Shown piece after piece: positions 1,466 to 29,628 of a stretch of DNA of 31,052 bases. The translations under genes were made by a program, and so were the position numbers. Within the stretch, counting starts at the first letter, position 1. Each line of letters opens with the position of its first letter. The stretch is taken from the IMG/VR virus record IMGVR_UViG_3300031625_000018, positions 1 through 31,052 of that record; one strand, given 5' to 3'. The notes beneath the pieces are model-generated. The model was given only the letters and a program-made list of their open reading frames with translations. It searched no databases and was not told the DNA's origin. The stretch comes from a virus.

Positions 1466-3400
1466 GTGGCATCTGGTCGGCCGATTTCTGCTGACACCTG
1501 GATCAAGTTCATGGAACTCCGGGACGGAGGCCAGTCGCGGTATGCGGCAGCCAACCGGATAGGGGTTTCGCAGCGGGCGGCTAAGGATTTCGAGGACGGC
1601 ACCGGGTCAAGCATCGGCCGGCTGGCTAAAGCCGCCTACGAGGACACCCGGAAACCTTCCGTCATCCCAGCATCCTTACTGTCGCCAGAGGCGGTGGAAG
1701 CATTCGAGAACATTGAGATTTTTGCTCGGCGTTACTTTGGGTTGATCTTGATGCCGTGGCAGATCGAAGCGACAGAACAGATCATGGAACTGCAACGCTC
1801 TCCGTATGAAGAGTATGTGGTCATCAACGCTCCACCTGGCTCCGGCAAGTCCACATTCTTCACTCGCATCCTCCCAGCGTGGGCCACTGTCCGGGATCGC
1901 ACCATTCGTGGAATGATTGGTTCCCACACCCAACGGCTAGCGGAGTGGTACACGCGCCGATTGAAGAACGAGTTTGAACGGTCGATCCCCGTGAGGGCTG
2001 AGACGAAAGATTTGAAACTCGGAATGGCGTTGGATGCCGCAGCCGTGTTGTCGGACGACTACGGCCGGTTCAAACCCGACATCAAAGAAGTGTGGCGGGC
2101 CGATCAGTTCACGGTGGCCCAGGAAGGCGATGTCCCTGTATCAGAGAAGGAACCGACCTGGACCTGCTTCGGTGTGGACTCAGGATTCCTGGGTGGCCGG
2201 TTCGATCTGATTATTTGGGACGACCTTTACGACCCTCGGAAAATGCGAACGGCTGATGCGCGCGATGACCTCAAGAGGTGGTGGGATGAAGTCGCGGAAA
2301 CCCGGCTGGAACCTGGAGGGTTGCTGATCCTCCAGGGGCAGCGCATGGCTGCGGACGACATTTACCGGTACGCCCTGGATAAGCACACCGACTTTGAAGA
2401 TGACGAGGAGATCGAGGGGGACCTGCCGGAAGATTTACGGTTGAACGGCGACCGGTACCACCACTTGTATTACCAGGCGCACTACCAAGACCTGTGCATG
2501 AACGAGCACAAGGTGACCGCTGAGCCTTGGCCGGACGGGTGCCTGCTGTATCCACGCCGATTGAACTGGCGGAAACTCAGCCACATCAAGAGCCAAACCC
2601 CTGACCGGTTTGAGATTCTGTACCAGCAGCAGGACGTTGACCCAGCCTCGGTGCTTGTCAACCCGGTGTGGATCAGCGGCGGGTTGGGTGACGACGGCGT
2701 GTTGTATCAGGGGTGCTGGGATGAAGGCCGGGATCTGTGGGAGTTGCCGGAGAATCTCCCCGGTGAACCTTTGATTGTCGCTACGGCTGACCCGTCACCG
2801 TCGAAGTATTGGGCGTTGCAGGTGTGGGCGTATGTGGAGGAGAGCGGCTGCCGGTATTTGTTGGAGTCGTACCGGCAGAAGATGGATGCCCCGACGTTTC
2901 TGGATTGGAACCACAACGAGGGTGTGTTCACTGGCATCGCTGAGGAGTGGTGGCAACGGTCGGTTGATATGGGCCACCCGATCCAGTATTGGGTGATTGA
3001 GTCAAACGCCGCCCAGAAGTTCATTCTCCAGTACGACCATTTCCAAAGGTGGTCATCTCAGAGAAACGTGAATCTGATCCCGCATTACACCCATGCACGG
3101 AATAAGGCTGACCCGGAATACGGGGTTCAAATGCTGGCGAGCATTTATCGGCACGGCCAAGTCAGGCTCCCTGGGAAACAGGGGACTGACGCCCGGCCCC
3201 ATGCACTACTCTTGGTGAGTGAAGTGACCAAGTGGACAGCAGACGGTCACGGTGCCAATACCGACGACTGTGTGATGGCCCAATGGTTCTTCGAACATAA
3301 TGTTCCCAATCTTCAAATACCCAAGGGGAACGTGGTTCCGATGTGGAGGCCGTCATGGATAACGGCAGCCAAAGGAGGCGGGCTCGTTGAAGCCGGCTGA
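1466..3400 (+). CDS. terL: Terminase large subunit
   Basis: A 644-residue packaging motor that pumps DNA through the portal and cuts concatemers. Walker A is APPGSGKST at residues 122-130 and Walker B is DLIIWDD at 247-253. A coupling motif LILQGQR follows at 287-293. The C-terminal RNase H-like nuclease shows the expected acidic residues: D442 (ATADPSPSKYWAL), E512 (YWVIESNAAQKF) and D600/D601 (ANTDDCVMAQWFF). Length is at the upper end for the family. Residues about 11-45 look like a helix-turn-helix (SRYAAANRIGVSQRAAKDF), which could supply DNA recognition normally given by a separate small subunit; no separate terS is evident. The GTG start at 1466 follows the upstream stop by one base. 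Its end overlaps the portal gene by 14 bases. Confidence 0.96.
   Translation: MASGRPISADTWIKFMELRDGGQSRYAAANRIGVSQRAAKDFEDGTGSSIGRLAKAAYEDTRKPSVIPASLLSPEAVEAFENIEIFARRYFGLILMPWQIEATEQIMELQRSPYEEYVVINAPPGSGKSTFFTRILPAWATVRDRTIRGMIGSHTQRLAEWYTRRLKNEFERSIPVRAETKDLKLGMALDAAAVLSDDYGRFKPDIKEVWRADQFTVAQEGDVPVSEKEPTWTCFGVDSGFLGGRFDLIIWDDLYDPRKMRTADARDDLKRWWDEVAETRLEPGGLLILQGQRMAADDIYRYALDKHTDFEDDEEIEGDLPEDLRLNGDRYHHLYYQAHYQDLCMNEHKVTAEPWPDGCLLYPRRLNWRKLSHIKSQTPDRFEILYQQQDVDPASVLVNPVWISGGLGDDGVLYQGCWDEGRDLWELPENLPGEPLIVATADPSPSKYWALQVWAYVEESGCRYLLESYRQKMDAPTFLDWNHNEGVFTGIAEEWWQRSVDMGHPIQYWVIESNAAQKFILQYDHFQRWSSQRNVNLIPHYTHARNKADPEYGVQMLASIYRHGQVRLPGKQGTDARPHALLLVSEVTKWTADGHGANTDDCVMAQWFFEHNVPNLQIPKGNVVPMWRPSWITAAKGGGLVEAG
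3371..3378 (+). promoter_or_regulatory. Strong RBS deciding the TTG start of portal
   Basis: The sequence aaaggagg lies within the end of the terminase gene, eight bases before a TTG at 3387. It is the best Shine-Dalgarno match in the area and is the reason for accepting a TTG start for the portal gene rather than a later codon. Confidence 0.7.
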
Positions 3401-5144
3401 GGAAATCATTGGGCTCCTGCGACAGCGGGAGTCCCAAATGGCACCTGGGCGCGCTCGAATGCGCGCTCTTCGGGATGCCTACAATGGCGATGTTGTTGTT
3501 CCGTTGCCGGAACTCGATGATAGCGAGCAGGTCGCTGTCGCTAATCTCGTTGCGCAGGGTCTCGACCAGACCGCTATGCGCATTTCGTCGGTCATGCCGG
3601 ATGTGATATTCCCGCCGACCGCGGAGCATACGAAAGCCGCCCAGCGTAAGGCGTCGGTTCGTCGGCGTGCCGTGTTGGGGTGGTGGCAGCAGAACCGTAT
3701 GGATTTGAAGTTGGGCCGTCGCGCCAGGCATCTCATCGGGTATGCGAGTTCGACAGTTTCGTTGAGGTTCAACAGCAAGACGGGTACCCCAGAGTGGATA
3801 GTTCGGGACCCGTTGACTTCGTTCCCGTCGCCGATGTTCGGCCCGGATGATCTTGAACCGTACGACTGCATTTTTTCTTACGAGCGGACACTGGACTGGT
3901 TGAAGGACCGGTACCCGGAAGCGTCGGCTGTTCTCCGCAGCGGGAAGAACCAGGGCTCGGACGTGTTCGAGTTGGTCGAGTACATGGATGGCGAGGAGAC
4001 GGTGCTGCTCGCTGTCGGTAAGGCTGCGCCATCGCCGTCGTCGTCGTGGTCGGCGGAGGCTAGTTACGATCCGCCGGTAGCGGAGATTGAACGGGTTAGA
4101 AACCGTACTGGTGTATGCCCAGTGGTTGTCGCTGGCCGTGTGAACCTTGATCGGGCGCAGGGACAGTTCGATGGAATGCTCGGCATGTACCAGACGCAGG
4201 CGAAGTTGATGGCGTTGGAAGTGCTGGCTGTTCAGAAGGGCATCTTCCCTGATACCTGGCTGGTGGCCCGGCCTGGGGAGACCCCCCAGATTGTCAACAC
4301 AGCGAATGGTCTCACGGGTGAGATCGGCGTGTTGAAGGGTGGCGAACTTCGTGACACCGGGTTGAACCCTGGGTTTATGACGAACCCGACGATTGACCGG
4401 CTGGAACGTGGGCAGCGTTTGACGGCTGGTATCCCCGCTGAGTTCGGTGGGGAGTCAGGGACGAACATTCGGACGGGCCGTCGAGGTGACGCGGTGCTGT
4501 CAGCGGTTGTGGATTTCCCCGTCCAGGAAGCGCAGAAGATGATTGCTGCGTCGCTGGCGGTGGAGAACAAGCGGGCCATCGCTCTCGCTAAGACGTATGC
4601 CGGCAACAAAGACAAGTCTTTCTATGTGTCTTGGAAGGGCGCTAAGGGGCCGGTGGATTACACCCCGAACGTTCACTTCGACAGCGACGAGAATGTTGTC
4701 GTGTTCAGCCATCCTGGGTCTGACATCAACAGTCTTGTTATTGGTGCCGGCCAGCGGATAGGTATGGGCACGCTGTCGAAGCGGGCGTTCATGCAGATCG
4801 ACCCGCTGGTTGATGACGCTGAGATAGAGCACGATGCGGTTATCGCTGAATCGTTGGAGCAGGCGTTGCTTTCTTCATTGGCGACGCAGGCGTCGCAGGG
4901 GGGTATCCCCCCTGCTGATTTGGCTCGGATCGCCGAGTTGGTAAAGACGGATCGGGCAGAGTTGGCTGATGCTATTCAGCAGGTTCAGCGCGAAACACAG
5001 GAACGTCAGGCAGAGGAAGTACCGGCAGGGGCTCCCGAAAGTATGCCTGGCCTTGCTCAGCCGGGGGCTGGTGCGGAGGCGAGGCCCGCCAGCCCTCAGG
5101 CTGGGCAACCTTCTCTCCAGGATCTCTTAGCGCAGGTCGGCTAG
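3387..5144 (+). CDS. Portal protein
   Basis: A 585-residue protein directly after the terminase, forming the DNA entry and exit ring at one capsid vertex. Family features seen by eye: an amphipathic N-terminal helix, an internal region typical of portals (GRARMRALRDAYNGD, then FNSKTGTPEWIVRDPLTSFP), a central wing/stem with GIPAEFGGESGTNIRTGRRGD around residues 350-370, and a C-terminal Glu/Gln-rich coiled coil near residues 510-550, ending in a Pro/Ala/Gln-rich tail. Start is TTG, supported by a strong Shine-Dalgarno sequence. Its stop TAG overlaps the GTG start of the next gene. Identification rests on order, length and overall pattern rather than one diagnostic motif. Confidence 0.88.
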   Translation: MKPAEEIIGLLRQRESQMAPGRARMRALRDAYNGDVVVPLPELDDSEQVAVANLVAQGLDQTAMRISSVMPDVIFPPTAEHTKAAQRKASVRRRAVLGWWQQNRMDLKLGRRARHLIGYASSTVSLRFNSKTGTPEWIVRDPLTSFPSPMFGPDDLEPYDCIFSYERTLDWLKDRYPEASAVLRSGKNQGSDVFELVEYMDGEETVLLAVGKAAPSPSSSWSAEASYDPPVAEIERVRNRTGVCPVVVAGRVNLDRAQGQFDGMLGMYQTQAKLMALEVLAVQKGIFPDTWLVARPGETPQIVNTANGLTGEIGVLKGGELRDTGLNPGFMTNPTIDRLERGQRLTAGIPAEFGGESGTNIRTGRRGDAVLSAVVDFPVQEAQKMIAASLAVENKRAIALAKTYAGNKDKSFYVSWKGAKGPVDYTPNVHFDSDENVVVFSHPGSDINSLVIGAGQRIGMGTLSKRAFMQIDPLVDDAEIEHDAVIAESLEQALLSSLATQASQGGIPPADLARIAELVKTDRAELADAIQQVQRETQERQAEEVPAGAPESMPGLAQPGAGAEARPASPQAGQPSLQDLLAQVG

Positions 5145-5515
5145 TGCCCCGCCCTAAAGCGCAACCAGGACAGACCTACGGGAAGCGGAAGGAACAGGTC
5201 GAGTCGCAGCAGGCGATCCCTATTCCTAAGCGTCCACCTGGTGGTGCTGGCGGCTTTGGCCGCCCAACGGAACGGCCTCGTGAGCCGATCACGGCTGGTC
5301 GCCCCACTGGTCCTGGTGCCGGCCCGGAATCGTTGATGATGCCGACCGCTCCGACGGATGGGCGTGAACTTGAATACTCCAAGTCGCTGGTCGAGTTCCT
5401 TCCGATGTTGGAGGTGAGGGCTGCGGAGCCGGACGCTTCTGGCACTTTCCGGTTGTTTGTCCGGAAGGTTCGCCAGATGGCGGCTTTGGCATCCCCACCG
5501 AATCAGACCGTCTAG
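5144..5515 (+). CDS. Small basic Pro/Gly-rich protein, portal-associated
   Basis: A 123-residue protein whose GTG start overlaps the portal stop codon (TAGTG), implying translational coupling. Residues 1-65 are basic and rich in Pro, Gly and Arg and probably disordered (KRPPGGAGGFGRPTERP). Residues 66-115 hold a short conserved-looking segment (APTDGRELEYSKSLVEFLPML). Small proteins with a similar layout occur between portal and internal or capsid proteins in actinophages, from memory, and have no proven role. It may help assemble the portal or internal proteins. It is followed two bases later by the giant gene. Confidence 0.7.
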   Translation: MPRPKAQPGQTYGKRKEQVESQQAIPIPKRPPGGAGGFGRPTERPREPITAGRPTGPGAGPESLMMPTAPTDGRELEYSKSLVEFLPMLEVRAAEPDASGTFRLFVRKVRQMAALASPPNQTV

Positions 5516-5517
5516 CC

Positions 5518-8500
5518 GTGGGCAGCATTTTCAATCGCATCGACGAGATTTGGGATGCCGGCTTTGAGGTAGGTCGGACTGGTGTCGGCACGATCGGTGA
5601 TCTTGTTCAGGCTCCGTTTACCGATGACGAGTACGAAGGTTTCATCGGGACCATGTGGGGTGTCGCCAAGGATCGTGGTGCTGACCAGATCGTCAACCTG
5701 ATCGGCCCTGAGGGGGTTGGCGGGGAAATCATCGAGGCGCTCCCTGAGGGTGTCCGTGCTCCTGGCCGGTCCCTCATCAAAGGTTTGGAGTGGGGTTACC
5801 GGGAAGTAGTCGGCGATCCTCTCTCCGGGTTTGTGACTGCTGTCGCTAGTTACTTCGATGGGGCAGAGGAGGACACCAGCATCTTCCTCACCGGTGAAGC
5901 ACCGGACGACTGGGTGGATCACATCCTTGGTTTTACTGACAGGCTCGTTGAGGGTTACAAGGTCGCGCAGGAGCGCAGCCCAGGCCAGGCGGTTGTCTTG
6001 GCGTTCGCAGCCGGCGATGTGTTCGACCCGAACGCGGGTGCAAGGTTCGAGGGCACAGCCTGGTACACGCTTTCTACCGGAACGCTTGATGCCATGAGTC
6101 GGTGGTTTCTGTCGCCAGATGTTCTGGCTTTCAAGGCTGGTTCAGCGCGCCGGGCTTCCAATCGTGCCGCCCACTTCGCAAACTATTTCGGTGATGCGAA
6201 ACCAACTGGCGGGGCGCTTTCCTCAGGGGTTCGAGCGCAGGCGGCTGCCGGTAGGAAGGGCACCGGGTTCGAGCGGTTCTCCGATGATGTAGTCAAGTTG
6301 GCTACGGAGTCCCCTGAACTTGGTGCGCTCCAGTTTTCTCATATCGCGCAGCGGTTGGCGGTGTTGCGTGTCCAAGCGACGACACTTCGGAACCGAATCC
6401 AAGTGTTGAAGGTTCAAAACAAAACGATCCCCGAGGCGTTGGCTGTTGATGCCAAAGCCGCGATGTTGGAGATCCGAGAGTTGCAGGGGATGGCCGACGA
6501 CTCGGTTGCGTTCTTGGCGGGTCGGGTCAAGGAGAAGTTCTTGAAGAGTCACCATGACGGTGACCTAGTGGCGCACGAGGCTGCTGCTGCATTCCTCGGA
6601 GCGAACGGTTGGAAGGGCGGCGTTGACGATCTTGAAAGCGTCATGCGGTTCTTCATGGGTGAGGCTACGGCTCTTGAACGGATCGCGCAGACAGCACCGG
6701 AGGCGTTCCCCAGGCTGGCTCACTTGTGGAAAACGAAAGCCTGGGTGCCGAGCGCCCATCCGCCTGGTACCCCTGGCGCTGATGCTGTCGCGTTTCTTCA
6801 CGCACAGATGGGACCGAAGGGGACCTGGCGTGGCGTAGAGGAGGATCTGCTGATCGGCTTGTACGGCACGTTGGACAAGTCGCTGGTGCCTACCAGCCGA
6901 GTCAACCTGGGTGACAGGATGATGAGGTCAGATTGGTTGCGTGACCCGGACGCCAACTTGGCTACTCGGGTTGCCCGTACCCCGGTTCGGGTGTTCAAGG
7001 ACATGAAGAACCAGCAGCACATTTGGGCTGGTGACCCGAACAGCGGTGAGCACATGATCCGCCAGTTGCAGGAGTCGGGTCTCTACACGGCTGATGAGAT
7101 GACTTCCTGGCGGGGGAAGTGGGCGGCTTCCCGCGATGTTGGGCGTCCCCTCATGGCGGACGAGAAGCAGGCGGAGTTGCTTATCCGGATGCTGGAGAAG
7201 CATCTACCGGATTTGTCGCCGGATGACATCGACCGTTTGCTTACGGATTTCAGGATCAGTAATAAATCGGCGCAGGTAGTTATGCGGGACGCCCAGATGT
7301 TCGACGCCGAGAACTCTTTGATGAAGGTCGTTGACAATGTGACTGGTGAAACGATGGAGATTTTTTCTCCGTTGACGCCTTCCCAGTTGAAGAACTCGTT
7401 TATTCTTTTCGATGTACGACAGATGAACAGAGAACTGAAACGGTTTGCAACGAAGGGATTTGCCCAGCCGAATGCCGCTGGGGAGTTTACGAAACTGGCG
7501 CTTCAGGAAGTCATGTCGTTGTGGAAGGCCGCTCAGTTGCTTCGGCCTGCCTGGGTGTTCCGGGTGGTTGGTGATGAGCAGTTCAGGATGATGGCGAAGA
7601 TCGGGTCGATGGCCCGGCTCAGCGAGTTGTTGAAGAACGACCGTGGTCATTATGTGAGAGCGGCGATGTCGCGGAAGGTTGTCAAGGACGGTGAGGTCAG
7701 TAGTAAGGCCGTGAGGAAACTCTTGGGTTTCCGCGCTGGTGTCACTGGCGGTCTCGGTTACTTGGTTGGTGGCCTTCCCGTGGCCGCCGGGTTTGCTCTT
7801 GCTTCCGGGGTTAGAAACGTTCACAACGTCCGCCGGTTGACCCGGCGGGTTGGTGACTTGAACCGGGCGAGGGCGTTGGTGAGAACCGGCGAGAAGTTCA
7901 GCATTCAAGAAGCCCAGAACATTCTCAAGAAGTACAAACTCGGGAACATGGACATCCTCGGCTACGAGGTTGAGGCCGCGTTTGGTGATGCGTTTGCGTC
8001 GGCATCTCAGTGGACGAAGTTGAACAGCGCCTCGAACCAGGCTGGGTATCTGCTACTCCAGGAGGAGCGAAAGTTCTACGAGGGTCTTGATGCGACGTTC
8101 GGTGGTGCTTGGAACCGGGTGTTCGATCCGACTGACGGCAAGGAGTTCAACAACTTCTGGGAACGGGTCGTCAACGATCAGTGGGCCAACAACCCTGTCG
8201 GGGCGATCGCTTTCAGGACTCACAGCCTGAACGTGGCGAATGACCAGGCAATCCGGGTCAGGAACCTTGAGCAATGGTTGGAGACCGGGCCTGGTCGAGC
8301 GTTCAAGAATGACAACAAGTTGCGTTTCAGGAATGACCCGGATGGCGAAGTTTGGGCTCAGCAGGTAGTCGAGGCTGCGGACAGGATGCTCGACCCGACC
8401 CTTGCCCGCACCTTGCGGGATCGTTTGGCTGACGGCGGCCGGGTCACGATCGACGATGTTCGAGCACACGCAGACGACTTGCGTGCGCAGGGCACGTTGG

Positions 8501-10404
8501 GGCCTGGTGACGACTGGCGGGAACTTGTCGGCCCGGTCCACGGTCAAGAACTAGAAATAGCGAGTCGCCCGCAGTCCGCCCTGGAAGCCCTCCACAAGCC
8601 GATCAACGCCGCCTACGAGCGGCTCGGTTCCCTAGGTACAGATCACCTGTCTCGCAACCCGTACTTCCGGCATGTGTACCAGAACGAGATGAAGCGGCGC
8701 ATCGGGAAGTTCCAGGAAACCGGCGGTGAATATGTGCTCGACCACGGGGCGCTCCGGTCGATAGAAGCAAGCGCCCGACGTAAAGCACTCATGGAAACCC
8801 GTGACCTCCTTTACGACCTGGCTGAGAGTTCCCGGTTCGCTGACCTCGTTCACAACCTGATGCCGTTCTACAACGCTTGGCAGGAGGTCTTGACCAGATG
8901 GGCGGGGCTTGCTTGGGAGAACCCAGTGTGGGTTTCCCACGCCAGGATGGTTCTCGAAGGGGAGGTAGACCTCGGCGATTTCATGCAGACCGTCGAGGAC
9001 GACCGGGGCGAGCGGTACTACCAGTTCCGTGTCCCCGAGTTTGCTAGAGGGCTGGTGAAGAACGGGTTTGCAAATCTGGCCGGTGACGACTTCGGGTTGA
9101 TCCGATTCCGCGCGGACAGCCTCAACATGGTGACCCAGGGACTCCCAGGGTTCGGGCCGCTTATCCAGTACCCGGCGTCGAAACTGGTGATGGAGAAGCC
9201 GCAACTCATGGAGGCTCTCCAGTTCATGTTGCCGTACGGGCCGGTTGATTCTCTCAGAAATACTTTCCTTCCCGCTTACGGGGAACGTATCTATTCGGCC
9301 CTGTCCCAGGACCGGGCTCACGAATCTCAGGTTCTACGGTTGATGATGCACCGGATGACAGAGATGGCTGAGGGTGAACGCGACGAGATCGACTTCAGCG
9401 ACGGCGACGCAGTGGCTGCATTCATTCAGGAAGCACAGAGTGATGGCCGGAACTTCATGTTGTTCCGTGCTGTGGCCTCAGCGTTCTCGCCGGCTCAGGT
9501 TGGGTTCTCTTCCCCGTACCAGCCTTACATTGAGAAGTACCGGGAGATGAAACGGAAGGACCCTAAGGGTGCTGACGACGAGTTCATGCGGTACCTGATG
9601 GCTGAGGGGCAGGCCGGGTTCTTTACTTTGGCTGCCCGCACCACGCGGAACAACGAGGGGTTGCCGTCTACGATTGAAGCGGTCGAGATCCGGGAGAAGT
9701 ACCAGGATCTCATCAACACTTACCCGTCGCTTGGCGGTTTGATTCTCGGCATCGAGGGTGGTGGTGCCGCGAAGTTCAACGCTGCGGTGTACGAGCGGCA
9801 GTTGAATGAGGAAACGTTCCCAGGTTCGGGTGTGACACGCCGGGAGAGGTTGACGCCGTACGAAATGATCGTGGATGTGCGGGAGCGTGAAGGCTGGGCG
9901 ACGTATGGGATGATTAGTGATGTCATCCAGACGGCGATGCAGGCCCAGGGGCTTCGGAATCTGAGGGGGAAGGCGGGTAAACCACTCGCTCAACTCAAGC
10001 GGGTGGTCGTTTCTAACCTCGCTGAGCGGTATCCACTCTGGTATCGGGACTTGCGAGACCCGGAACTTTCCGAATGGCCGGAGAGAATCGAGGGGATGCG
10101 GGCTATTGTTGCAGATGAACGCCTTTCGGGACGGCAGGACATTGAATCACTTGGTGGTTATCTCGCTGCGAGAGACATGGTGACGGGTGTGCTTGCCTAC
10201 CGTGCCGCTTCGGGGGGTGCATCAACGCTGTCGGCCGAGGCCAACACGGATCTTAGACTTATGTGGGAAACGGTAACGGACAACATGATCGAGAACCCGA
10301 CGTTCTCCGACCTGTTTTGGCGGTGGTTGGAGTACGACAAGTTGCTTTCGGAGACCTGGCCGCCTGAGCAGAAGGCATTGAAGTTGGGGAAGGTGGCAGG
10401 ATGA
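5518..10404 (+). CDS. Giant internal virion / DNA-ejection-type protein (1628 aa)
   Basis: By far the largest gene here, starting with GTG at 5518. It is mostly helical and hydrophilic, with one clear hydrophobic stretch at residues about 740-765 (VTGGLGYLVGGLPVAAGFA) followed by a basic stretch. Segments that look conserved across phages include LLRPAWVFRVVGDEQ (from residue 674) and LMPFYNAW (1114-1121), an aromatic-rich region. No peptidase, MuF, lysozyme or single-subunit RNA polymerase motifs were found. By size, position among portal and scaffold genes and the single membrane-type segment, it is best read as an internal capsid protein ejected with DNA, perhaps forming a channel. That role is inference. 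It overlaps the next gene by 4 bases (ATGA). Confidence 0.75.
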   Translation: MGSIFNRIDEIWDAGFEVGRTGVGTIGDLVQAPFTDDEYEGFIGTMWGVAKDRGADQIVNLIGPEGVGGEIIEALPEGVRAPGRSLIKGLEWGYREVVGDPLSGFVTAVASYFDGAEEDTSIFLTGEAPDDWVDHILGFTDRLVEGYKVAQERSPGQAVVLAFAAGDVFDPNAGARFEGTAWYTLSTGTLDAMSRWFLSPDVLAFKAGSARRASNRAAHFANYFGDAKPTGGALSSGVRAQAAAGRKGTGFERFSDDVVKLATESPELGALQFSHIAQRLAVLRVQATTLRNRIQVLKVQNKTIPEALAVDAKAAMLEIRELQGMADDSVAFLAGRVKEKFLKSHHDGDLVAHEAAAAFLGANGWKGGVDDLESVMRFFMGEATALERIAQTAPEAFPRLAHLWKTKAWVPSAHPPGTPGADAVAFLHAQMGPKGTWRGVEEDLLIGLYGTLDKSLVPTSRVNLGDRMMRSDWLRDPDANLATRVARTPVRVFKDMKNQQHIWAGDPNSGEHMIRQLQESGLYTADEMTSWRGKWAASRDVGRPLMADEKQAELLIRMLEKHLPDLSPDDIDRLLTDFRISNKSAQVVMRDAQMFDAENSLMKVVDNVTGETMEIFSPLTPSQLKNSFILFDVRQMNRELKRFATKGFAQPNAAGEFTKLALQEVMSLWKAAQLLRPAWVFRVVGDEQFRMMAKIGSMARLSELLKNDRGHYVRAAMSRKVVKDGEVSSKAVRKLLGFRAGVTGGLGYLVGGLPVAAGFALASGVRNVHNVRRLTRRVGDLNRARALVRTGEKFSIQEAQNILKKYKLGNMDILGYEVEAAFGDAFASASQWTKLNSASNQAGYLLLQEERKFYEGLDATFGGAWNRVFDPTDGKEFNNFWERVVNDQWANNPVGAIAFRTHSLNVANDQAIRVRNLEQWLETGPGRAFKNDNKLRFRNDPDGEVWAQQVVEAADRMLDPTLARTLRDRLADGGRVTIDDVRAHADDLRAQGTLGPGDDWRELVGPVHGQELEIASRPQSALEALHKPINAAYERLGSLGTDHLSRNPYFRHVYQNEMKRRIGKFQETGGEYVLDHGALRSIEASARRKALMETRDLLYDLAESSRFADLVHNLMPFYNAWQEVLTRWAGLAWENPVWVSHARMVLEGEVDLGDFMQTVEDDRGERYYQFRVPEFARGLVKNGFANLAGDDFGLIRFRADSLNMVTQGLPGFGPLIQYPASKLVMEKPQLMEALQFMLPYGPVDSLRNTFLPAYGERIYSALSQDRAHESQVLRLMMHRMTEMAEGERDEIDFSDGDAVAAFIQEAQSDGRNFMLFRAVASAFSPAQVGFSSPYQPYIEKYREMKRKDPKGADDEFMRYLMAEGQAGFFTLAARTTRNNEGLPSTIEAVEIREKYQDLINTYPSLGGLILGIEGGGAAKFNAAVYERQLNEETFPGSGVTRRERLTPYEMIVDVREREGWATYGMISDVIQTAMQAQGLRNLRGKAGKPLAQLKRVVVSNLAERYPLWYRDLRDPELSEWPERIEGMRAIVADERLSGRQDIESLGGYLAARDMVTGVLAYRAASGGASTLSAEANTDLRLMWETVTDNMIENPTFSDLFWRWLEYDKLLSETWPPEQKALKLGKVAG

Positions 10405-11273
10405 GCGTGCACCCAGTTCAGATGACTCCCGAGGAAATAATGCAGGCGTTGTCTGAGTGGATGGTGAGCACAGGCAACCTGTTTGAGGGCCAGATGGGCC
10501 AGTTCGTCGAGGCGGACCAGCAGTATTCCGGGCTGGTCCCGTCGGGTTACTCGCTGGAGTTCATGTACCCGCAGGATCTGGAGTCAGGTGACTACGAGTG
10601 GGAGTGGGACCCTGATCGTGTGCTCCCGATTTCGGAAGAGGCCACTACCGGACGCCCATCCGAAGAAGGTGTTGGCGGGTTCGGTGCCACGATGGAAGCC
10701 ATGCGGGCAATAAGCAGGGAGCCGTCCCCAGGTGAAGAAGGAGCGATCGAGACTGACGTACCGGTCATGCGTGCTTACACGATGCGTGACGAAATCGACA
10801 GATACCTCAACACCATCCCCGGTTCAGCCGCACAGGAAGCACTCGCCGAAACCCTGTGGTCCAACAACTTCTACACGGATGGCACCAGCCGAGACGAGAT
10901 ACTGCAACCACGCCACATCGACTCCGCGTTCCAACTTGGTGTCACATGGGGAGCACGGCAGGGTGTCTCTATTTGGGACATGGAAGCAGGCCCAGGCCGG
11001 GAGGACACGGCGGCCACGGCGCTCACCGATGCGTCGATCTATCACTCGGCGGAGACGGCAGCGAAGCAGTCGTTCGGTCGTAGTGCTACTTCCGCTGAGA
11101 AGCAGATGGCGGTGAAGATTTCTCGTGCTTTGGAAGCAGCAGGTGTGCCAGTGTCGCGGGCGGACATTGCCGCAGAGTTGGAAACTGGTGCCCCCGATGA
11201 GGTCAAGGCGAGGGACATGAGCACGACGCTTCGTTACCTGATGAAGGCTATGGCTGGTCGGGGGGCGAGTTAG
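10401..11273 (+). CDS. Internal virion protein, unknown function
   Basis: A 290-residue acidic, helical protein sharing an ATGA overlap with the giant gene. The first 120 residues are low in hydrophobic residues and contain acidic/aromatic runs (ESGDYEWEWDPDRV). The last 70 residues form a compact-looking helical module (KISRALEAAGVPVSRADIAA). A similar ending, with an 'ETGAP' motif, appears from memory in other actinophage internal proteins. It is probably an accessory of the ejection apparatus, inferred from its place in the four-gene block 5518-14814. No enzyme motif was seen. Confidence 0.65.
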   Translation: MSVHPVQMTPEEIMQALSEWMVSTGNLFEGQMGQFVEADQQYSGLVPSGYSLEFMYPQDLESGDYEWEWDPDRVLPISEEATTGRPSEEGVGGFGATMEAMRAISREPSPGEEGAIETDVPVMRAYTMRDEIDRYLNTIPGSAAQEALAETLWSNNFYTDGTSRDEILQPRHIDSAFQLGVTWGARQGVSIWDMEAGPGREDTAATALTDASIYHSAETAAKQSFGRSATSAEKQMAVKISRALEAAGVPVSRADIAAELETGAPDEVKARDMSTTLRYLMKAMAGRGAS

Positions 11274-11275
11274 TC

Positions 11276-13291
11276 ATGGGTCTTGACGACTTCACTGCGG
11301 GTGCTGCTGATCCTGGACGCATGTCGTTCGAGGACAGGTTGCGGTTCGCTAAAGACCTCCTTTCCAATCTTGATGCCCCGGAGACTGCCGGCAATGTGCA
11401 TTTCCTGTTGGCCTGGATGGCGAAGGAGAACACCACCGCTGGGGGCGTTTCGAGTAACGGCTCGGGGTTCAACCCGTTGGCTACAACTTGGAACTTTGAC
11501 GGCGGAGCGGCGGCTGGCGATAGGCCGATCAACGGGGACTCAACTCAGAACGGCGGGAACCCGGTTCAGGAATACGGCACTTGGGAGCGTGGCCTGATGG
11601 CGACTCTGCAAACGCTTCTCGGTAAGCCGTCGTGGAAACCGGAGGGCCACTACTCGAACCTGGTCGCGGCGCTTCGTGAAGGCACGAACCTTGACAAGGT
11701 GTCCGCTGATTCGGTGATCCTTGGTGAACTTCAAACCTGGGGTTCGATCAACGTCGATAATCCGCAGTTCGGTACTCGAACCGGGTACTCGTACGAGGAG
11801 TTGGCAAAGGGGTATATCACTGGGGACCAGCCTGAACTGGCTGATGATGGCCCCCTGGATTTCCGGGCGATGCTGTTGGATAAGTTTCCTAATCTTGCAG
11901 CGGCCGGATTGTCGGGCGAAGAGTTCGAAGCGTTTTACCAGAACGCTTTGGACATCGTGGCGGAGCATGGGCTCGAAGGGTTGGATCTGCTCCAGACCAG
12001 CGCGGAAGAGTTGGTCGCGGAGATGCCGTCCGATGAGGAGCCAGCCGTTGTCGTAGAGGTCCCCGTTGTAGATGATCTTTACCCTGGGCTGGAAAGGCCG
12101 GTGTATGACGGCGATTCCCCGTCGGGTCTTGCGATCTTCAACGCTCTCCTCGACAACCCGTTGTTCGCCCCTGATCTCGATTCCGATACGTTTTCATTTC
12201 GTCAGCCTGGGCCTGGTGATCCGGGCACCGGTTATCGGGATGAGTTCCTCCAGGCCGTGGGGTCGTTCGGCGGGAATAGTTACATCGACTACGACACCGC
12301 GCGTCGCTTCGCTGAGGGGTTGTTCCTCAACTTCTCGGACGAGATGCTTGATGAAGTCGCACAGATTGTTTCGTCGGTAACCGCTGAGCAGTACCCCGAC
12401 GAAGCGTCGGCGTATGTTCCTCCCGCCGGGCAGCCGGAGTCTTGGAACCCGGTGGCGGAGTTCGGTTTCATGGCCGACTTCCTCAACCACCCGGAGATCG
12501 GACCACTGCTGCGGCAGGCCGCGGACGAAGGCTGGGACGAACAGAAGTTCATGGACGCGATTTACCTGACGGGCTGGTGGACTCTGACAGAGACCGCTGA
12601 CATCCGGTTCCAGTTCATGGAGTCATGGCAGCCAGCCCAAGCCACAGCGATGAAGGACAACCAGGCGGCTGCGATTCTCAAGATCGCAGACCGGCTTGAC
12701 ATCGCCATTGACCCAGGCCGGTTGGGTGATATGGCACGCAACTCGATCGTCGAGTCGTGGACGGCTGACGACATGAACAGGAAGATCCTGGCCGAAGCAT
12801 CCTGGGCAATGGGCGAAGCCGAGGGTGGAGAGATCGGTGGGAAGATGCGAACGGTTGGCGGGTATGTCGATAAGTATTTCGTGCCGCATAGCGCAAGCCA
12901 GATAGAGGAGTTCGCCCGCAAGTTGTACCTTGGGGATGAAACAGAGGCGGGGCTTGAGGCGTACTTTGCGAACCTGGCGAAGGGGCAGTACCCGTCGTTG
13001 GCTACCCACATTGACCGCGGGTATACGGTGAAGCAAATCTTTGATCCTTACGCCCAGCAGATAGCCGGCCTTCTGGAGATACCTGCTACGAGCGTGGACT
13101 TTGTGAACGATCAAAGGTTCCAACCGATCATTGACCACATCGGTTCCGATAATGAGCATCGCCCGATGACGTTGTGGGAGACGGGTGAGTATGTCCGTGG
13201 TCTCGACGATTGGCAATACACGGATAATGCCAAGACCTCGGCACGGAAACTTTCTGATTTCATTGGTCGGAAGTTTGGGAGCGTTGGCTAA
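11276..13291 (+). CDS. Internal virion protein with N-terminal lysozyme-like domain
   Basis: A 671-residue protein. Residues about 30-140 resemble a phage lysozyme/transglycosylase-like fold: LLAWMAKENT with E51 as candidate catalytic acid, FNPLATTWN at 65-73, VQEYGTWERGL at 97-107 and YSNLVAALREG at 126-136. This series (acidic helix, 'NPL-TT', 'VQ-Y-SW-GL-AT', 'Y--I--ALR-G') is familiar from virion-associated peptidoglycan-degrading domains. The rest is helical, with an acidic linker near residues 250-275 and a C-terminal half (W-rich, repeating helical segments, KGQYPSLATHIDRGYT) shared with other large phage internal proteins. It probably opens the cell wall during DNA ejection. It ends TAATG, overlapping the next gene. 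Confidence 0.7.
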   Translation: MGLDDFTAGAADPGRMSFEDRLRFAKDLLSNLDAPETAGNVHFLLAWMAKENTTAGGVSSNGSGFNPLATTWNFDGGAAAGDRPINGDSTQNGGNPVQEYGTWERGLMATLQTLLGKPSWKPEGHYSNLVAALREGTNLDKVSADSVILGELQTWGSINVDNPQFGTRTGYSYEELAKGYITGDQPELADDGPLDFRAMLLDKFPNLAAAGLSGEEFEAFYQNALDIVAEHGLEGLDLLQTSAEELVAEMPSDEEPAVVVEVPVVDDLYPGLERPVYDGDSPSGLAIFNALLDNPLFAPDLDSDTFSFRQPGPGDPGTGYRDEFLQAVGSFGGNSYIDYDTARRFAEGLFLNFSDEMLDEVAQIVSSVTAEQYPDEASAYVPPAGQPESWNPVAEFGFMADFLNHPEIGPLLRQAADEGWDEQKFMDAIYLTGWWTLTETADIRFQFMESWQPAQATAMKDNQAAAILKIADRLDIAIDPGRLGDMARNSIVESWTADDMNRKILAEASWAMGEAEGGEIGGKMRTVGGYVDKYFVPHSASQIEEFARKLYLGDETEAGLEAYFANLAKGQYPSLATHIDRGYTVKQIFDPYAQQIAGLLEIPATSVDFVNDQRFQPIIDHIGSDNEHRPMTLWETGEYVRGLDDWQYTDNAKTSARKLSDFIGRKFGSVG

Positions 13292-14814
13292 TGGCAACCA
13301 CCATTATTGACGGCAAGGAAGTTACTTACGCCCCGATTCTGAAAGGTCAGGAGGACCTGGAGAATCCGCTCGACCCAGCCCAGGTCGCTGCTCTGGCTGC
13401 TAATGGTGCCGAGTTCCACAACGAGTACCTCATGTCTCATGGCGGCAGTTGGTCCGATCCGTTCTCCGGGGTTCAGATCGGTCAAGTCGAGGATTGGTCC
13501 GGGGTCACAAGCATGTGGACTCGCGAACCGGGCGCTGCTGGGCCTCCGGGCATGTTCGAGCCGGGTGGTGCTCGGGTCGGTGACGCGATGGCAACCTCGA
13601 ACATCCAGACGAAAGCCGGTGAGATTGACCTGACCGACCCGGTTGCCGATCAGAAACTAATAGATGACACGGCGCGGGCTCTCATGGCTAATACGTTCAC
13701 CCCTGACCGTGCCGCCGCTACCGCTGGTTGGGACGAGGTGTATGGCGAGGGGTACCTGGACTCGGTGCGTGCCACGGGTACTGGCATGGATCTCCTCACC
13801 GGTGGCCGGGTGGATTCGGCTGCTGGGTTCGCTCTGCCAGCCGCGGACACAAGTAGCGAACCGGGCGGAAGCGAGATCCTGCCAGCGGACCCGCTGGGGC
13901 TGGGCACCACCTTCGACGATCCTCGGACGGCCCGCGAGATCGTTGCGGATGCGTTGCGAGGCTACGGCCTGGAAGCGTTGCTCGATGACCCTGAGTTGAA
14001 TCTGATTGGCAGATGGCAGGCCACTAACAATCTGGATGCGATATGGGCTGCTGTCCGGCAGGCACCCGTCTACACGGCCAGGTTCCCTGGGATGCAAGCG
14101 TTGGCTAAGCAGGGCCGGGCCATAACGGAGAGCCAGTACGTTGACCTGGAAGAGGGTTACGCGAAGGCGCTTCGCATGTACGGGATGGCCCCAGAGTATT
14201 TCGATTCGCCAGACGACTTCGGTGACTGGATTGCCGGAGACGTTTCCGTTTCAGAAGTGACAAGCCGGCTCGGTGTAGCAACCGACGCTGTGCTTGCTAC
14301 GAGCCAGACGACTAAGGACCTGCTTCTAACCTGGCACGGGATAGATGCTTCCGATTTGACTGCCTATTTCCTGGACCCTGAGAGAGCGACGACAGTGTTC
14401 GAGGAGCGGGAGATGTTGGGTGCTGCCCGGATTGGTGGTGCTGCTGCTGAGACCGGGTTCGGCCCATTGTCCAAAGCGACCGCGACGACGCTGCGTGCTG
14501 CTGGGGTTACTGAGGCGGTGGCTCGTGCAGGGTTCGCGGAGATAGCGCCGTCTACGTTGGCTGAGGAAACTGCGTCGGAGGGTCTCTACACAGATCCGGT
14601 AACCGGCCGGCAGATGGTGAGCGCCGCTGTGGTAGGCCAGCAGAAACCGGGTGACATCACTCGGGCAGAACTGGCGGGCGCGAAGTTCGGTACCGATCCT
14701 GAGGCGGCACGCCGCATAGAAGCACGGAGACAGACACGTTTGGCTGCTTTCCGGCAGACGGGCGGTCCCGCTATGACGGGTGGCGGAGTGGTCGGATTAG
14801 GTTCCGCGTCGTAA
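13291..14814 (+). CDS. Internal virion protein, unknown function
   Basis: A 507-residue protein, last of the four-gene internal block; its ATG overlaps the previous stop (TAATG). The N-terminal 220 residues are Gly/Asp-rich and look flexible. Residues about 215-430 are helical (TAREIVADALRGYGLEALL and following). Near the C-terminus is a module around LRAAGVTEAVARAGFAEIAP, a pattern I associate with internal virion proteins paired with lysozyme-domain partners in other phages. The extreme C-terminus is basic then Gly-rich (RRIEARRQTRLAAFRQTGG). No catalytic motif was seen. It is followed by the promoter-containing gap before the scaffold gene. Confidence 0.65.
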   Translation: MATTIIDGKEVTYAPILKGQEDLENPLDPAQVAALAANGAEFHNEYLMSHGGSWSDPFSGVQIGQVEDWSGVTSMWTREPGAAGPPGMFEPGGARVGDAMATSNIQTKAGEIDLTDPVADQKLIDDTARALMANTFTPDRAAATAGWDEVYGEGYLDSVRATGTGMDLLTGGRVDSAAGFALPAADTSSEPGGSEILPADPLGLGTTFDDPRTAREIVADALRGYGLEALLDDPELNLIGRWQATNNLDAIWAAVRQAPVYTARFPGMQALAKQGRAITESQYVDLEEGYAKALRMYGMAPEYFDSPDDFGDWIAGDVSVSEVTSRLGVATDAVLATSQTTKDLLLTWHGIDASDLTAYFLDPERATTVFEEREMLGAARIGGAAAETGFGPLSKATATTLRAAGVTEAVARAGFAEIAPSTLAEETASEGLYTDPVTGRQMVSAAVVGQQKPGDITRAELAGAKFGTDPEAARRIEARRQTRLAAFRQTGGPAMTGGGVVGLGSAS

Positions 14815-14935: not shown

Positions 14936-15448
14936 ATGGCTGACGAAACAACCTCCGAGGCTGTTGAACTAGACGCCAACGGCGAACCAAAGCGGAACTT
15001 CCGTCGGGTTCTGGAAGATAGGGCAGAAACAGCAGAGGCCAAAGTGGCTGAACTGGAAGCCCGAGTTTCCGGATTCTTACGGGATACTACTTTCCGTGAT
15101 GCGGGCATTGACATGGCTGATTCGCGCCAACAGTATTTCATTCGTGGATACGACGGCGAGATGGACGCAGAGTCAATCCGGGTAGCGGCAGTAGAGGCGG
15201 GGTTTATCTCCGACTCAGGGCCGACAACTCCGGGTGTTCCGTTGCAGCAGGGTTCCCCTGAGATTCCTCAGGAGACTCCCACGTTGCAGCAGGAACTTAT
15301 GGCCCAGGATCGGATCGCCAATGCTGGGGCTCAGAGCCGACCGGTTACTCCACCGGATCTGAATAGTCAGATCCAGGCGACAACATCGCAGGAGCAACTC
15401 CAGGCGCTGATGGAATCCCAGGGGTACACGTTCAACGTCCAGGGCTGA
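14936..15448 (+). CDS. Scaffolding protein
   Basis: A 170-residue acidic protein immediately upstream of the major capsid gene, the classic position of a scaffold that templates capsid assembly and is then lost. Residues about 22-47 form a coiled coil (RRVLEDRAETAEAKVAELEA). The middle is acidic. Residues 85-150 are Pro/Gln/Thr-rich and probably disordered, with a short helical C-terminus (TSQEQLQALMESQGYTF) that could contact the capsid protein. The ATG is supported by a strong ribosome-binding site and a long leader. The assignment rests on position, size and composition, since scaffolds conserve little sequence. Confidence 0.8.
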   Translation: MADETTSEAVELDANGEPKRNFRRVLEDRAETAEAKVAELEARVSGFLRDTTFRDAGIDMADSRQQYFIRGYDGEMDAESIRVAAVEAGFISDSGPTTPGVPLQQGSPEIPQETPTLQQELMAQDRIANAGAQSRPVTPPDLNSQIQATTSQEQLQALMESQGYTFNVQG

Positions 15449-15491: not shown

Positions 15492-16421
15492 ATGGCTTAC
15501 ACCCAAAAGTCATCCGTAGCGAGTGACCAGGCTGCTTTCGAGCAGTTGGCTTACTTCGCGTTCCGGTCTCAGCCGTTGCACGCGGACTATGCGTCCGTCC
15601 GTGCAACCAAGCAGACTCACCGGGGCTCAGGGGTGACGTTCACCATTTACGCTGATCTTGCGCAGGCCACAACGGCTCTGACCGAGACCAGTGATGTCAC
15701 AGCAGTTGCAATGTCGGACAGCACCGTTACGGTGAACCTGGCCGAGTATGGCAATGCTGTGGTCACGACTGCCGCACTTCGCGGACAGTCCTTCTTCAAC
15801 GTCGATTCAGATGCAGCCGCGATCGTTGGTTACAACGCCGCGGATTCTCTGGATCAGGTCGTTGCTGACCTGCTTTATGCCGGCTCGAACGTCAAGTACG
15901 TTTCGCAGTCAGCACGGGGCTCACTCGTAGCAGCCAACGTCATCACGTCGTCGGTTGTACGCGAGCAGGTGGCTGCTATGAGAACGGCCTCTGTGCCGAC
16001 TTTCAATGGCGGCTCATACATCGGGTTCATCCACCCGGATGTGGCTTACGACTTCATTGGCGGCACAGCCGTCAACGATCTGCGGTCGTTCCAGATCCGT
16101 CAGGATGCGTCTGGTGTTCGCCAGGGCAGCATCGGGACATTCGACGGTGTTGACTTCATCGAGACGCCTCGGGCTCTGCTCGTCGCTGACGGTGGTTCCA
16201 GTACTGCCGATGCCTACGGCACGGTCATCATCGGCCAGCAGGCCATAGCACATGCCTTCTCGACGATGTACGGGGCAAACCCGTCGGTCGTGGTTGGTCC
16301 TGTGACTGACAGCCTGCGTCGCTTCCAGCCTGTTGGCTGGTACGCCATGTGCGGCTACGGCCGTTTCCGCGAGGCTGCGATCCGTAGGATCGAATCTTGC
16401 TCAAGCATCGGGGCCAACTAG
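15492..16421 (+). CDS. Major capsid protein, N4-gp56 family
   Basis: A 309-residue HK97-fold coat protein. The pattern matches the N4-gp56 family as I know it: FEQLAYFAFRSQPL near residue 15, GVTFTIYADLAQATTAL, then VTVNLAEYGNAVVTT, LRGQSF, an IVGYNAADSLD helix, a late FIHPDVAYDF and FDGVDFIETPRALLV. Length is normal for the family. A scaffold gene precedes it and a strong hairpin follows it, a common arrangement for the most abundantly made phage protein. The C-terminus contains GWYAMCGYGRFREAAIRRIES with two cysteines (C290 region and the last 10 residues). Confidence 0.93.
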   Translation: MAYTQKSSVASDQAAFEQLAYFAFRSQPLHADYASVRATKQTHRGSGVTFTIYADLAQATTALTETSDVTAVAMSDSTVTVNLAEYGNAVVTTAALRGQSFFNVDSDAAAIVGYNAADSLDQVVADLLYAGSNVKYVSQSARGSLVAANVITSSVVREQVAAMRTASVPTFNGGSYIGFIHPDVAYDFIGGTAVNDLRSFQIRQDASGVRQGSIGTFDGVDFIETPRALLVADGGSSTADAYGTVIIGQQAIAHAFSTMYGANPSVVVGPVTDSLRRFQPVGWYAMCGYGRFREAAIRRIESCSSIGAN

Positions 16422-17186: not shown

Positions 17187-17849
17187 ATGGCTACCGCTTA
17201 TCCTGGCGCACTAGATACTTCTGGTTCTCAACTTCGGACGGACATTGCGTCCACTGACGATCTTGATGCGTCAGGTAAAGAGCACGATGTGATGCACGTC
17301 AATGTGCATGGTGCGACTATTGCCCTGGAAACGAAGATGGGCACGGGTACGTCGAACGCTGCGTCTGCTACGGCTGGGCATGTTCTGACTCATTCGTCTG
17401 GTGGCGCTACAGCGTGGGCGGTTACTGCTGCTGATGCGACGAAGTTGCCGTTGGCTGGTGGCACGATGAGTGGTGAACTTGTCGCCGCTGACCAGTTGGT
17501 GACTCGCCCGGAAATGAAGGACTATTCCGAAACGGTCAACATCATTGGTGGGACTGGTGGCGGTACGCAGGACATCGACTTGACGTTGGGCAACGTGGTG
17601 ACTGCCACGGTTGATACCAGCACTAACACGTTCACGTTCTCCAACCCGTCGCCTACCGCTAAGGCGTGTTCGTTCACCTTGTTCCTCACGAATGGTGGGT
17701 CGCAGACGGTGGCTTGGCCTGGGACGGTTGATTGGGCGGGGGGTACTGCTCCGACGCTTACAACGTCCGGGGTGGATGTCTTGACGTTCACGACGGTTGA
17801 TGCGGGTACCATCTGGTACGGGTTCGCTGCTGGCCTGGCGATGGCGTAA
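17187..17849 (+). CDS. Tail-fibre-type protein
   Basis: A 220-residue protein. It contains the motif KLPLAGGTMSGEL near residue 88, a short segment found in many phage tail-fibre and receptor-binding proteins, and a C-terminal beta domain (SFTLFLTNGGSQTVAWPG, then DAGTIWYGF) typical of fibre heads. The N-terminus has an alanine/His stretch (HDVMHVNVHGATIAL) that may attach it. A ribosome-binding site aagggg lies before ATG 17187. It ends TAATG into the glycine-rich fibre gene, suggesting that the two are partners. Confidence 0.75.
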   Translation: MATAYPGALDTSGSQLRTDIASTDDLDASGKEHDVMHVNVHGATIALETKMGTGTSNAASATAGHVLTHSSGGATAWAVTAADATKLPLAGGTMSGELVAADQLVTRPEMKDYSETVNIIGGTGGGTQDIDLTLGNVVTATVDTSTNTFTFSNPSPTAKACSFTLFLTNGGSQTVAWPGTVDWAGGTAPTLTTSGVDVLTFTTVDAGTIWYGFAAGLAMA

Positions 17850-21042: not shown

Positions 21043-21329
21043 TGGGTGAACTACGGTGGGAGAACAATCGTTGGGTGTGTGACGACACGCCTGAGGAGAA
21101 GGCCGCGTTCGCTGCGAACGTCAGGACGTTGATGATTGCCCCGTCTGCTTTGCCGACCCGTAGCGGTGCGGGTGAGGACAAGAAGGCTTGGGCGAAGATG
21201 GAGAAAGATATGCCTGCGTACAAGCGTCTCCGGGATGAGGGGCTTCAGCCTCCTTCGGTGCGTGGTTCCGCTGATCTTGAGGCGAGTGCTGTTAGCAAGG
21301 CTGATATTGAATCGGCGGTGGTGGCATGA
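21042..21329 (+). CDS. Small helical phage protein, unknown
   Basis: A 95-residue protein. The ATG at 21042 overlaps the upstream stop (TGATG), and its own stop overlaps the next ATG (ATGA). N-terminal MGELRWENNRWVCDDTP is followed by a charged, helical stretch with Lys/Glu-rich AWAKMEKDMPAYKRLRDEG and an acidic end. I do not recognise it with confidence. Its place just upstream of the connector gene suggests a tail or connector accessory or chaperone. Confidence 0.65.
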   Translation: MGELRWENNRWVCDDTPEEKAAFAANVRTLMIAPSALPTRSGAGEDKKAWAKMEKDMPAYKRLRDEGLQPPSVRGSADLEASAVSKADIESAVVA

Positions 21330-22219
21330 CGGCTCAAACGTGGATTGACCGTACGCGGGATCTGCTTCTGGCTGGGACGGTGGAGCCACTCAACCGGTTG
21401 GATGGCGCTATCGCTAGCGGTACGACAGCGACGTTCAGTGTGGAGTTCCCGACCGGGGCGATCGCAGCAGGAACGATTATCGAGATCGACACCGAGTTGA
21501 TGTACGTCACCTCCACCAGCGGGTTGAGTGTGACGGTGATGCGTGGCTATGCGGCGTCTACCGCCCCTGCCGCTGGTCATATCGACGACTCGATTATCCG
21601 GGTGAACCCTCAGTACCCGTCGCATCAGATCCTTGATTTCCTCAACGACGATCTGAATGATTTGTCCTCCCCGAACAACGGGCTGTACCAGATCAAGACC
21701 AAGACGTTCACCTATTCTGCCGCCACCCAGGGTTACGACATGAACGCTGATGTGGTCGGTGTCCACCGGGTGACGTTCACTGATCCGGGTGCTGATAAGT
21801 CGGAGCCGGAGGTACGCCGCTGGTCGATACGCCGTAACCGTGATACCGATACGTTTGCTTCGGGGGTTGCCCTGGTTCTAACTGATGCACCCATGCCGGG
21901 GCAGACGGTGCGGGTTGAATACTCAGCGCCGTTCACGACGCTTGCGAGTGAGTCGTCTACTTTGGCGAGCACCGGCCTGCACGCTGAGGCGTACGACCTG
22001 CCGTCCTTGGGGGCTGCCCTGGGGTTGATGACCATGAAGCCCATCCCAAGAGAGTCAGTGACCTCCCAGGGGTCTGTGAGGCGTGCTGAGGAAGTACCTT
22101 CGGGTGCGATCTCGGCGAGCCTTAGGGATCTCAGGTTCCGTAGACAGGATCGGATCACAGCAGAGGCGACTCGCTTGTCGCGTTTGTACCCTGTGCAATG
22201 GGTCCGTTCCGGGAGGTAG
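21326..22219 (+). CDS. Head-tail connector/adaptor protein
   Basis: A 297-residue protein. A beta-rich N-terminal third (TFSVEFPTGAI, IIEIDTELMYVTSTSG, VTVMRGYAASTA) is followed by an acidic helical segment (HQILDFLNDDLNDLSSPN) and GLYQ, then a beta C-terminal part ending in helices rich in Arg (RDLRFRRQDRITAEATRLSRL). The 'IDxELMYV...VMRGY..STA' strand plus the 'N..P..GLY' element is a pattern I associate with phage head-to-tail connector complex proteins. Placed directly before the nozzle-type protein it would be the short-tail adaptor. The gene end supplies the gggagg ribosome-binding site of the next gene. Confidence 0.65.
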   Translation: MTAQTWIDRTRDLLLAGTVEPLNRLDGAIASGTTATFSVEFPTGAIAAGTIIEIDTELMYVTSTSGLSVTVMRGYAASTAPAAGHIDDSIIRVNPQYPSHQILDFLNDDLNDLSSPNNGLYQIKTKTFTYSAATQGYDMNADVVGVHRVTFTDPGADKSEPEVRRWSIRRNRDTDTFASGVALVLTDAPMPGQTVRVEYSAPFTTLASESSTLASTGLHAEAYDLPSLGAALGLMTMKPIPRESVTSQGSVRRAEEVPSGAISASLRDLRFRRQDRITAEATRLSRLYPVQWVRSGR

Positions 22220-25527: not shown

Positions 25528-25528
25528 C

Positions 25529-25558
25529 TTGCGTAGGTGGGGGAACCTGGGGTACGAT
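25529..25558 (+). promoter_or_regulatory. Promoter of early/recombination module
   Basis: A -35-like ttgcgt (25529-25534), an 18-base spacer and a -10 tacgat (25553-25558) within ggtacgattgc. TAnnnT -10 boxes are typical of actinobacterial sigma-70-class promoters. The 11-base core GGTACGRTTRC is shared with the box before the scaffold gene (14821-14831). The leader to the next ATG (25592) carries a very strong ribosome-binding site, gaggaggga (25578-25586). This is the clearest promoter I found. Confidence 0.65.
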
Positions 25559-25591
25559 TGCGGTGTCGCCTAGCCCTGAGGAGGGACGAGC

Positions 25592-27072: not shown

Positions 27073-27079
27073 GGAGACT

Positions 27080-29624: not shown

Positions 29625-29628
29625 TCCC

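Follow-up and report, generated by a model that had tools for sequence, protein, structure and literature searches.

Ejection proteins have been reviewed as a trait of podophages with Gram-negative hosts that is absent from phi29-like phages of Gram-positive bacteria (2022 review; PMC8954989). In Kuravirus SU10, five proteins, gp20 to gp24, have been shown to leave the virion (PMC9509320). This study concerns a block of four genes, encoding p1628, p290, p671 and p507, at positions 5518 to 14814 of IMG/VR virus record IMGVR_UViG_3300031625_000018, whose 31,052 bases we call the window. The record is classed as linear and is probably a fragment; genomes of cluster BF measure ∼44 to 46.5 kb, and several related contigs measure 36 to 48 kb. 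The cultured members of the lineage to which the block belongs are Streptomyces phages of the Beephvirinae (cluster BF), of which the FlowerPower group are podoviruses (PMC9753666), and Planktophila phage LanE43AprE7, whose host belongs to “Ca. Nanopelagicales” (PMC10202952). An earlier note, drawn from the letters of the window, proposed that the block forms a distinct ejection apparatus. We find that the block and the adjacent p123 gene probably encode proteins that are carried inside the head and ejected by a short-tailed lineage of phages infecting Actinobacteria.

A conserved block between portal and capsid

The block covers 9297 bp, or 30% of the window, in four plus-strand open reading frames (ORFs) that overlap or abut by no more than 4 bp. 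The description in the earlier note, consecutive ORFs of 1628, 290, 671 and 507 residues running from portal to scaffold/capsid over nearly a third of the window, is exact. The features of the block, with p123, are as follows.

5144..5515, +, p123, small and cysteine-poor, probable fifth block member (PHROG 8200)
5518..10404, +, p1628, putative giant internal/ejection protein (PHROG 10618, unknown function, E 2e−42; FlowerPower gp9)
7756..7812, +, Gly/Ala-rich hydrophobic stretch at p1628 residues 747 to 765, a weak candidate for a membrane-active segment (Kyte-Doolittle [KD] value of 1.49, the peak of the protein)
10401..11273, +, p290, fast-evolving block protein (120 profile matches; at the place of FlowerPower gp10)
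11276..13291, +, p671, candidate wall-penetration protein with an N-terminal module and a conserved C-terminal domain (homolog of FlowerPower gp11 and gp12)
11333..11830, +, p671 N-terminal module, residues 20 to 169, with a putative lysozyme-like role and no database match
12473..13288, +, p671 shared C-terminal all-helical domain, residues 400 to 671 (AlphaFold2 [AF2] pLDDT mostly >90)
13291..14814, +, p507, with conserved core residues ∼212 to 422 (PHROG 8424, E 2e−42; FlowerPower gp13)

Relatives were tied to the block by tblastn and profile searches. Iterative profiles run over 164 fetched loci recovered 118 members of the p1628 family, 120 of p290, 148 of p671 and 141 of p507. In the 65 of these loci that hold both a portal and a major capsid protein (MCP), the order portal-p123-p1628-(p290)-p671-p507-(scaffold)-MCP was kept without exception and on a single strand, with 8.4 to 13.5 kb between portal and MCP; because some loci share a contig, the independent contigs number slightly fewer than 65. 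The window has the full order. Among the phages that keep it are podoviruses established by electron microscopy: Abafar, Destructrice and the FlowerPower group. With 118 to 148 profile matches per block ORF and a gene order kept in 65/65 loci, these are not chance ORFs. The p123 gene always lies between portal and p1628, and p123 probably acts as part of the block. The p290 protein, which has no predicted transmembrane segment, is not universal and was not detected in Planktophila phage LanE43AprE7 (L004) or in loci L133 and L146.

The block is a hallmark of a widespread lineage. At least 207 matched stretches in IMG/VR carry p1628 relatives and at least 599 carry related capsids. The arrangement is not peculiar to the genome of the window, since ∼30 GenBank phage records carry relatives of it. 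The Beephvirinae counterparts are gp9 for p1628, the pair gp11 and gp12 for p671, and gp13 for p507, with p290 at the place of gp10. An unannotated record, OX376640 (“Caudovirales sp. ct2KA10”), is by its strain name Planktophila phage LanE43AprE7 and belongs to the lineage. The GenBank labels of block relatives are hypothetical or minor tail protein, and the papers searched do not describe the annotated relatives as ejection proteins. One scan of 84,980 bacterial and archaeal genomes yielded no confirmed prophage copies, which fits a virulent lineage.

Exclusion of cysteine from the block proteins

The four block families contain 41 cysteines in 353,633 residues (0.12 per 1000), compared with 870 in 155,406 residues (5.6 per 1000) for five other families from these loci: terminase large subunit (TerL), portal, MCP, adaptor and nozzle. 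These homologs are related by descent, and the counts are therefore not independent trials. No other residue is depleted beyond ∼2-fold in the block families. All four block proteins were free of cysteine in 79 of 100 loci; p1628 of the window has none, and cysteine-free homologs make up 139/141 of the p507 family and 86/89 of the p123 family.

The same absence of cysteine was found in proven or accepted ejection proteins, taken as controls: SU10 gp20 to gp24, P22 gp7, gp20 and gp16, T7 gp15 and gp16, phiKMV 35 to 37, and N4 gp50 to gp52. Most portal, adaptor and nozzle proteins of the checked phages (L165, L166, L167, L170 and L172) have some cysteine. A 2010 paper on N4-like phages suggested that the virion RNA polymerase lacks cysteine so that it can pass through tail and periplasm (PMC3715699). 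Together, these data suggest that cysteine exclusion may be a general marker of proteins that pass through portal and tail.

Exchangeable modules in p671 and insertions in p1628

A peptidoglycan hydrolase domain is a common but not universal trait of podoviral ejection proteins, and it is present in the p671 family. A Pfam scan of 94 members found NlpC/P60 in seven, SLT in six, SLT_3 in five, phage lysozyme in two and VanY in one, along with peptidoglycan-binding domains. In FlowerPower, gp11 bears NlpC/P60 at residues 17 to 125 and gp12 bears SLT at residues 8 to 95, both upstream of the shared C-terminal domain. The N-terminal module of the window's p671 occupies this place, which suggests that p671 acts as a wall hydrolase. 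The same module occurs in p671 members of loci L126, L114, L115, L122, L010 and L149. A profile comparison of this module with the SLT-bearing gp12 gave no more than a hint of similarity (71 columns, E 0.04, probability 1%). Assignment of the module to a known hydrolase was dropped, as no PDB or phage match was obtained.

In locus L011 (1344-2630), a p507 homolog bears the N-terminal module of the window's p671, a swap between block proteins. Module shuffling has been described for the ejection proteins of T7 and K1E (PMC8954989).

The p1628 protein is a chassis that accepts insertions in relatives, of up to several hundred residues and at a few sites. The homolog in L146 (5396-12283; 2295 residues) carries an ADP-ribosyltransferase inserted at residues 1132 to 1321 (PF03496, E 7e−24), which points to injected cargo, and it is cysteine-free throughout despite the insert. 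An AF2 model of p1628 residues 430 to 1628 (pLDDT 81, pTM 0.70) is globular and mainly helical, unlike an extended ruler. In Foldseek searches of viral models it matched its own lineage, including the Manuel homolog; further weak matches were not used. Much of the subclade shows a similar hydrophobicity peak where the window's p1628 has residues 747 to 765.

Capsid, tail and host of the lineage

The genes that give the block its context are as follows.

1466..3400, +, TerL (PHROG 38, E 2e−48)
3387..5144, +, portal protein (place and size as in the annotated portals of FlowerPower and Treat; lineage profile)
14936..15448, +, scaffold-like protein of 170 residues (PHROG 7813; directly 5′ of the MCP wherever detected; putative scaffold by position)
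15492..16421, +, MCP (PF13252, E 7e−29)
21326..22219, +, head-tail adaptor of SU10 type, tail-tubular-A-like (PF24175; window protein E 5e−5, below cutoff)
22223..24085, +, candidate nozzle of 620 residues (PHROG 11667, unknown function; follows the adaptor in relatives; role by position)

Searched against PDB profiles, the portal gave only three matches, all to portal proteins and all weak (E 0.02 to 0.04). The capsid is of the N4 gp56 type, as the earlier note had recognized: besides the match to PF13252, a search with the lineage profile of the MCP found N4 gp56 (E 4e−4). Homologs of the adaptor matched PF24175 in 14/33 cases (best E 5e−8). No genes for a long tail were recognized. Published electron microscopy shows short tails for relatives, measured at 16 ± 2 nm in Abafar and Destructrice (PMC11536984, PMC13097060), and the window, known from its genes, encodes the SU10-type adaptor.

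A WhiB transcription factor gene (29359-29934; PF02467, E 4e−16) supports an actinobacterial host. The start of this long ORF is probably wrong, because the domain covers only residues 99 to 166. With relatives that infect Streptomyces and “Ca. Nanopelagicales,” the assignment to an actinobacterial short-tailed lineage is upheld. Of the distinct ejection apparatus proposed in the earlier note, proteins of probable internal/ejection type in an unusual position remain; the accompanying claim that tail-tube genes are lacking fails, given the SU10-type adaptor and the conserved candidate nozzle that follows it.

Proposed function and alternatives

The best reading is that the block is an ejection system non-homologous to known ones, suited to thick-walled, single-membrane hosts and relocated beside the portal; we infer packaging in the head, ejection and formation of a conduit. 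As the head assembles, the proteins would be incorporated into it around the portal; after adsorption, they would exit via portal, adaptor and nozzle before the DNA. The exchangeable N-terminal module of p671 would open the thick peptidoglycan locally, while its conserved helical C-terminal domain would keep p671 in the particle. The p1628 and p507 proteins, usually with p290, may form a conduit or pilot that prolongs the short tail as far as the single membrane, and p1628 could bear additional enzymatic cargo.

Several observations weigh against an ejection function. Foldseek found no PDB fold match for p1628 or p671, and the N-terminal module of p671, without a Pfam, PDB or phage match, falls in no recognized enzymatic family. 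When the block families were searched against proteins of T7, N4, SU10, Page and Vibrio phage D65 (hmmsearch with --max), only noise was returned. There is no gp14-like protein with multiple transmembrane segments, and no 19-residue window in the four proteins exceeds a KD value of 1.6. The cysteine signature is neither exclusive nor universal: cysteine is likewise absent from gpH, the tape measure of lambda, and from some scaffolds and capsids, and T7 gp14 and the large proteins of epsilon15 and crAss001 retain a few cysteines. Given gpH, absence of cysteine should be read as “inside the DNA channel or ejected” and not as “podoviral ejection protein.”

The alternative that fares best, though we consider it improbable, is that p1628, and perhaps p507 and p290, are host-takeover effectors injected as polyvalent cargo, with p671 alone acting on the wall and no conduit. 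The ADP-ribosyltransferase in the L146 homolog and the large insertions at a few sites fit this idea. The p1628 model also has fold matches to large polyvalent-protein-associated proteins, which are too weak to count (probability mostly <0.7, TM-score ∼0.1). Most p1628 members have no recognizable effector domain, and conservation of the p1628 chassis everywhere suits a structural role.

External tail lysins commonly carry hydrolase modules too, and the present GenBank labels would suit short-tail or adhesion proteins, such as tail-associated lysins or spikes, that are not internal to the head. We regard this as a slim prospect: fibre-like proteins are encoded elsewhere (17187-18820), the conserved domains are alpha-helical rather than beta-rich, the genes lie beside portal and scaffold, and cysteine exclusion is common to proteins proven to be ejected.

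A siphovirus-like tail module, with p1628 as tape measure, p290 and p671 as Dit/Tal-like proteins and p507 as a minor tail protein, is less probable still. The sizes and order of the genes do resemble TMP-Dit-Tal, p671 relatives are labeled minor tail protein in GenBank, and lambda gpH shares the lack of cysteine. However, a ruler of 1628 residues would give a tail of ∼240 nm at 1.5 Å per residue (PMC11536984), and no identifiable tape measure was found in Destructrice (PMC13097060). A tape-measure role for p1628 is ruled out by the adaptor and by the 16-nm tails of relatives whose p1628 homologs have ∼1.6 to 1.7 thousand residues; the place of the block before scaffold and capsid and the globular p1628 model likewise argue against such a module. 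The earlier note had named a profile match to a tape measure or MuF class as grounds for abandoning its proposal, and no such match was found. Least probable of all are head-morphogenesis factors (MuF-like or core proteins) that serve capsid assembly and are not ejected, since, although MuF and core genes often sit between portal and scaffold, Pfam found no MuF domain in 94, 26, 66 and 58 members of the four families, there was no protease profile, and wall-hydrolase modules hardly make sense for assembly.

The ejection reading therefore remains the favored one. A broader version of it, which we hold with only a slight leaning, is that a large and mainly uncultured lineage of actinobacterial phages uses, against thick-walled hosts with one membrane, a non-homologous ejection machine encoded between portal and scaffold, in which the modular p1628 chassis can carry injected enzymes such as an ADP-ribosyltransferase and wall-cutting modules swap freely between subunits. 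For actinobacterial hosts, the block provides a tangible candidate for an ejection system, one that is conserved and occurs in cultured Streptomyces phages, and it gives likely functions to genes currently called hypothetical or minor tail. Cysteine exclusion is suggested as a simple marker of proteins that go through portal and tail.

Other genes of the window

Upstream of the terminase, an ORF at 309-1229 encodes a proline-rich, cysteine-free protein of 306 residues for which the fetched loci, Pfam and PHROGs contain no homolog. The ORF at 18595-19176 matches PHROG 7759 over residues 76 to 190 only; its upstream part overlaps, in another frame, a glycine-rich gene at 17849-18820, and translation more likely begins at the ATG at 18820 (MAHFAEIDE...). 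An early module at 24275-28865 encodes a metallophosphoesterase/exonuclease (PHROG 284), a holin (PF16945), a Cas4/RecB-like nuclease, a single-strand annealing protein, a single-stranded DNA-binding protein and a PD-(D/E)XK nuclease.

Comparison with known systems

None of T7, N4, SU10, P22, phiKMV and epsilon15 has its internal virion genes between portal and scaffold, and in most of these phages portal, scaffold and capsid genes are neighbors. This agrees with the earlier statement that ejection genes lie elsewhere in T7- and N4-like phages. Among the phages compared, only this lineage therefore has the block next to the portal. Searches of PDB profiles with each of the four families gave no credible match, and lineage profiles detected no homology to T7 gp14, gp15 or gp16 (P22 proteins were not profile-searched). 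An N4-type virion RNA polymerase was considered for p1628 and rejected: gp50 was absent among the p1628 profile matches listed, in which the best N4 protein had E 0.33.

The block is a cluster of genes with a very large member, as in T7- and P22-type systems, and its products are putative internal virion proteins; it does not lie downstream of capsid and tail-tube genes as theirs do. The T7 genes 14, 15 and 16 resemble it in being clustered, with one giant and a wall hydrolase domain, and gp15 and gp16 are cysteine-free. T7 differs in having its core genes after those for capsid and tail tube, in the lack of homology and in its gp14 with multiple transmembrane segments. SU10 has a cysteine-free set, gp20 to gp24, with one giant (1473 residues), and a related adaptor family; it differs in having the ejection genes at the far end of the structural module and in showing no sequence homology. 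Because homology as searched, gene position and a gp14-type protein all fail to connect them, the block is not placed in the T7, P22 or SU10 families despite its similar proposed working.

Vibrio phage D65 has a related capsid (profile E 6e−26), encoded closely after the portal or its position. Bacillus phage Page (Pagevirus) has a related MCP (lineage profile E 7e−44) and TerL and also encodes a cysteine-free protein of 1679 residues of unknown function. It differs in that portal, scaffold and MCP are adjacent, the giant gene comes last before the holin, and the giant has no detectable homology to p1628. This Page protein, gp20 (L168, 19786-24825), is annotated as hypothetical and is preceded by cysteine-free gp18 and gp19; gp18 to gp20 are likely an unrecognized ejection set in a Bacillus podovirus.

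Planktophila phage LanE43AprE7 (OX376640) carries portal, p123, p1628 (1764 residues), p671 (442), p507 (530), a scaffold-size ORF and MCP in the same order as the window; it differs in that p290 was not detected and in its larger MCP, which has an insertion. The Beephvirinae (FlowerPower, Treat, Manuel and Abafar) differ from the window in a portal merely ∼19 to 20% identical, in having two paralogs (NlpC/P60 and SLT) as the p671 counterpart, in an array of ∼21 tRNA genes between p507 and scaffold, and in an endolysin gene between TerL and portal. They resemble it in an MCP 38% identical to that of the window and in the placement of gp9, gp10, gp11/gp12 and gp13 between portal and scaffold/MCP.

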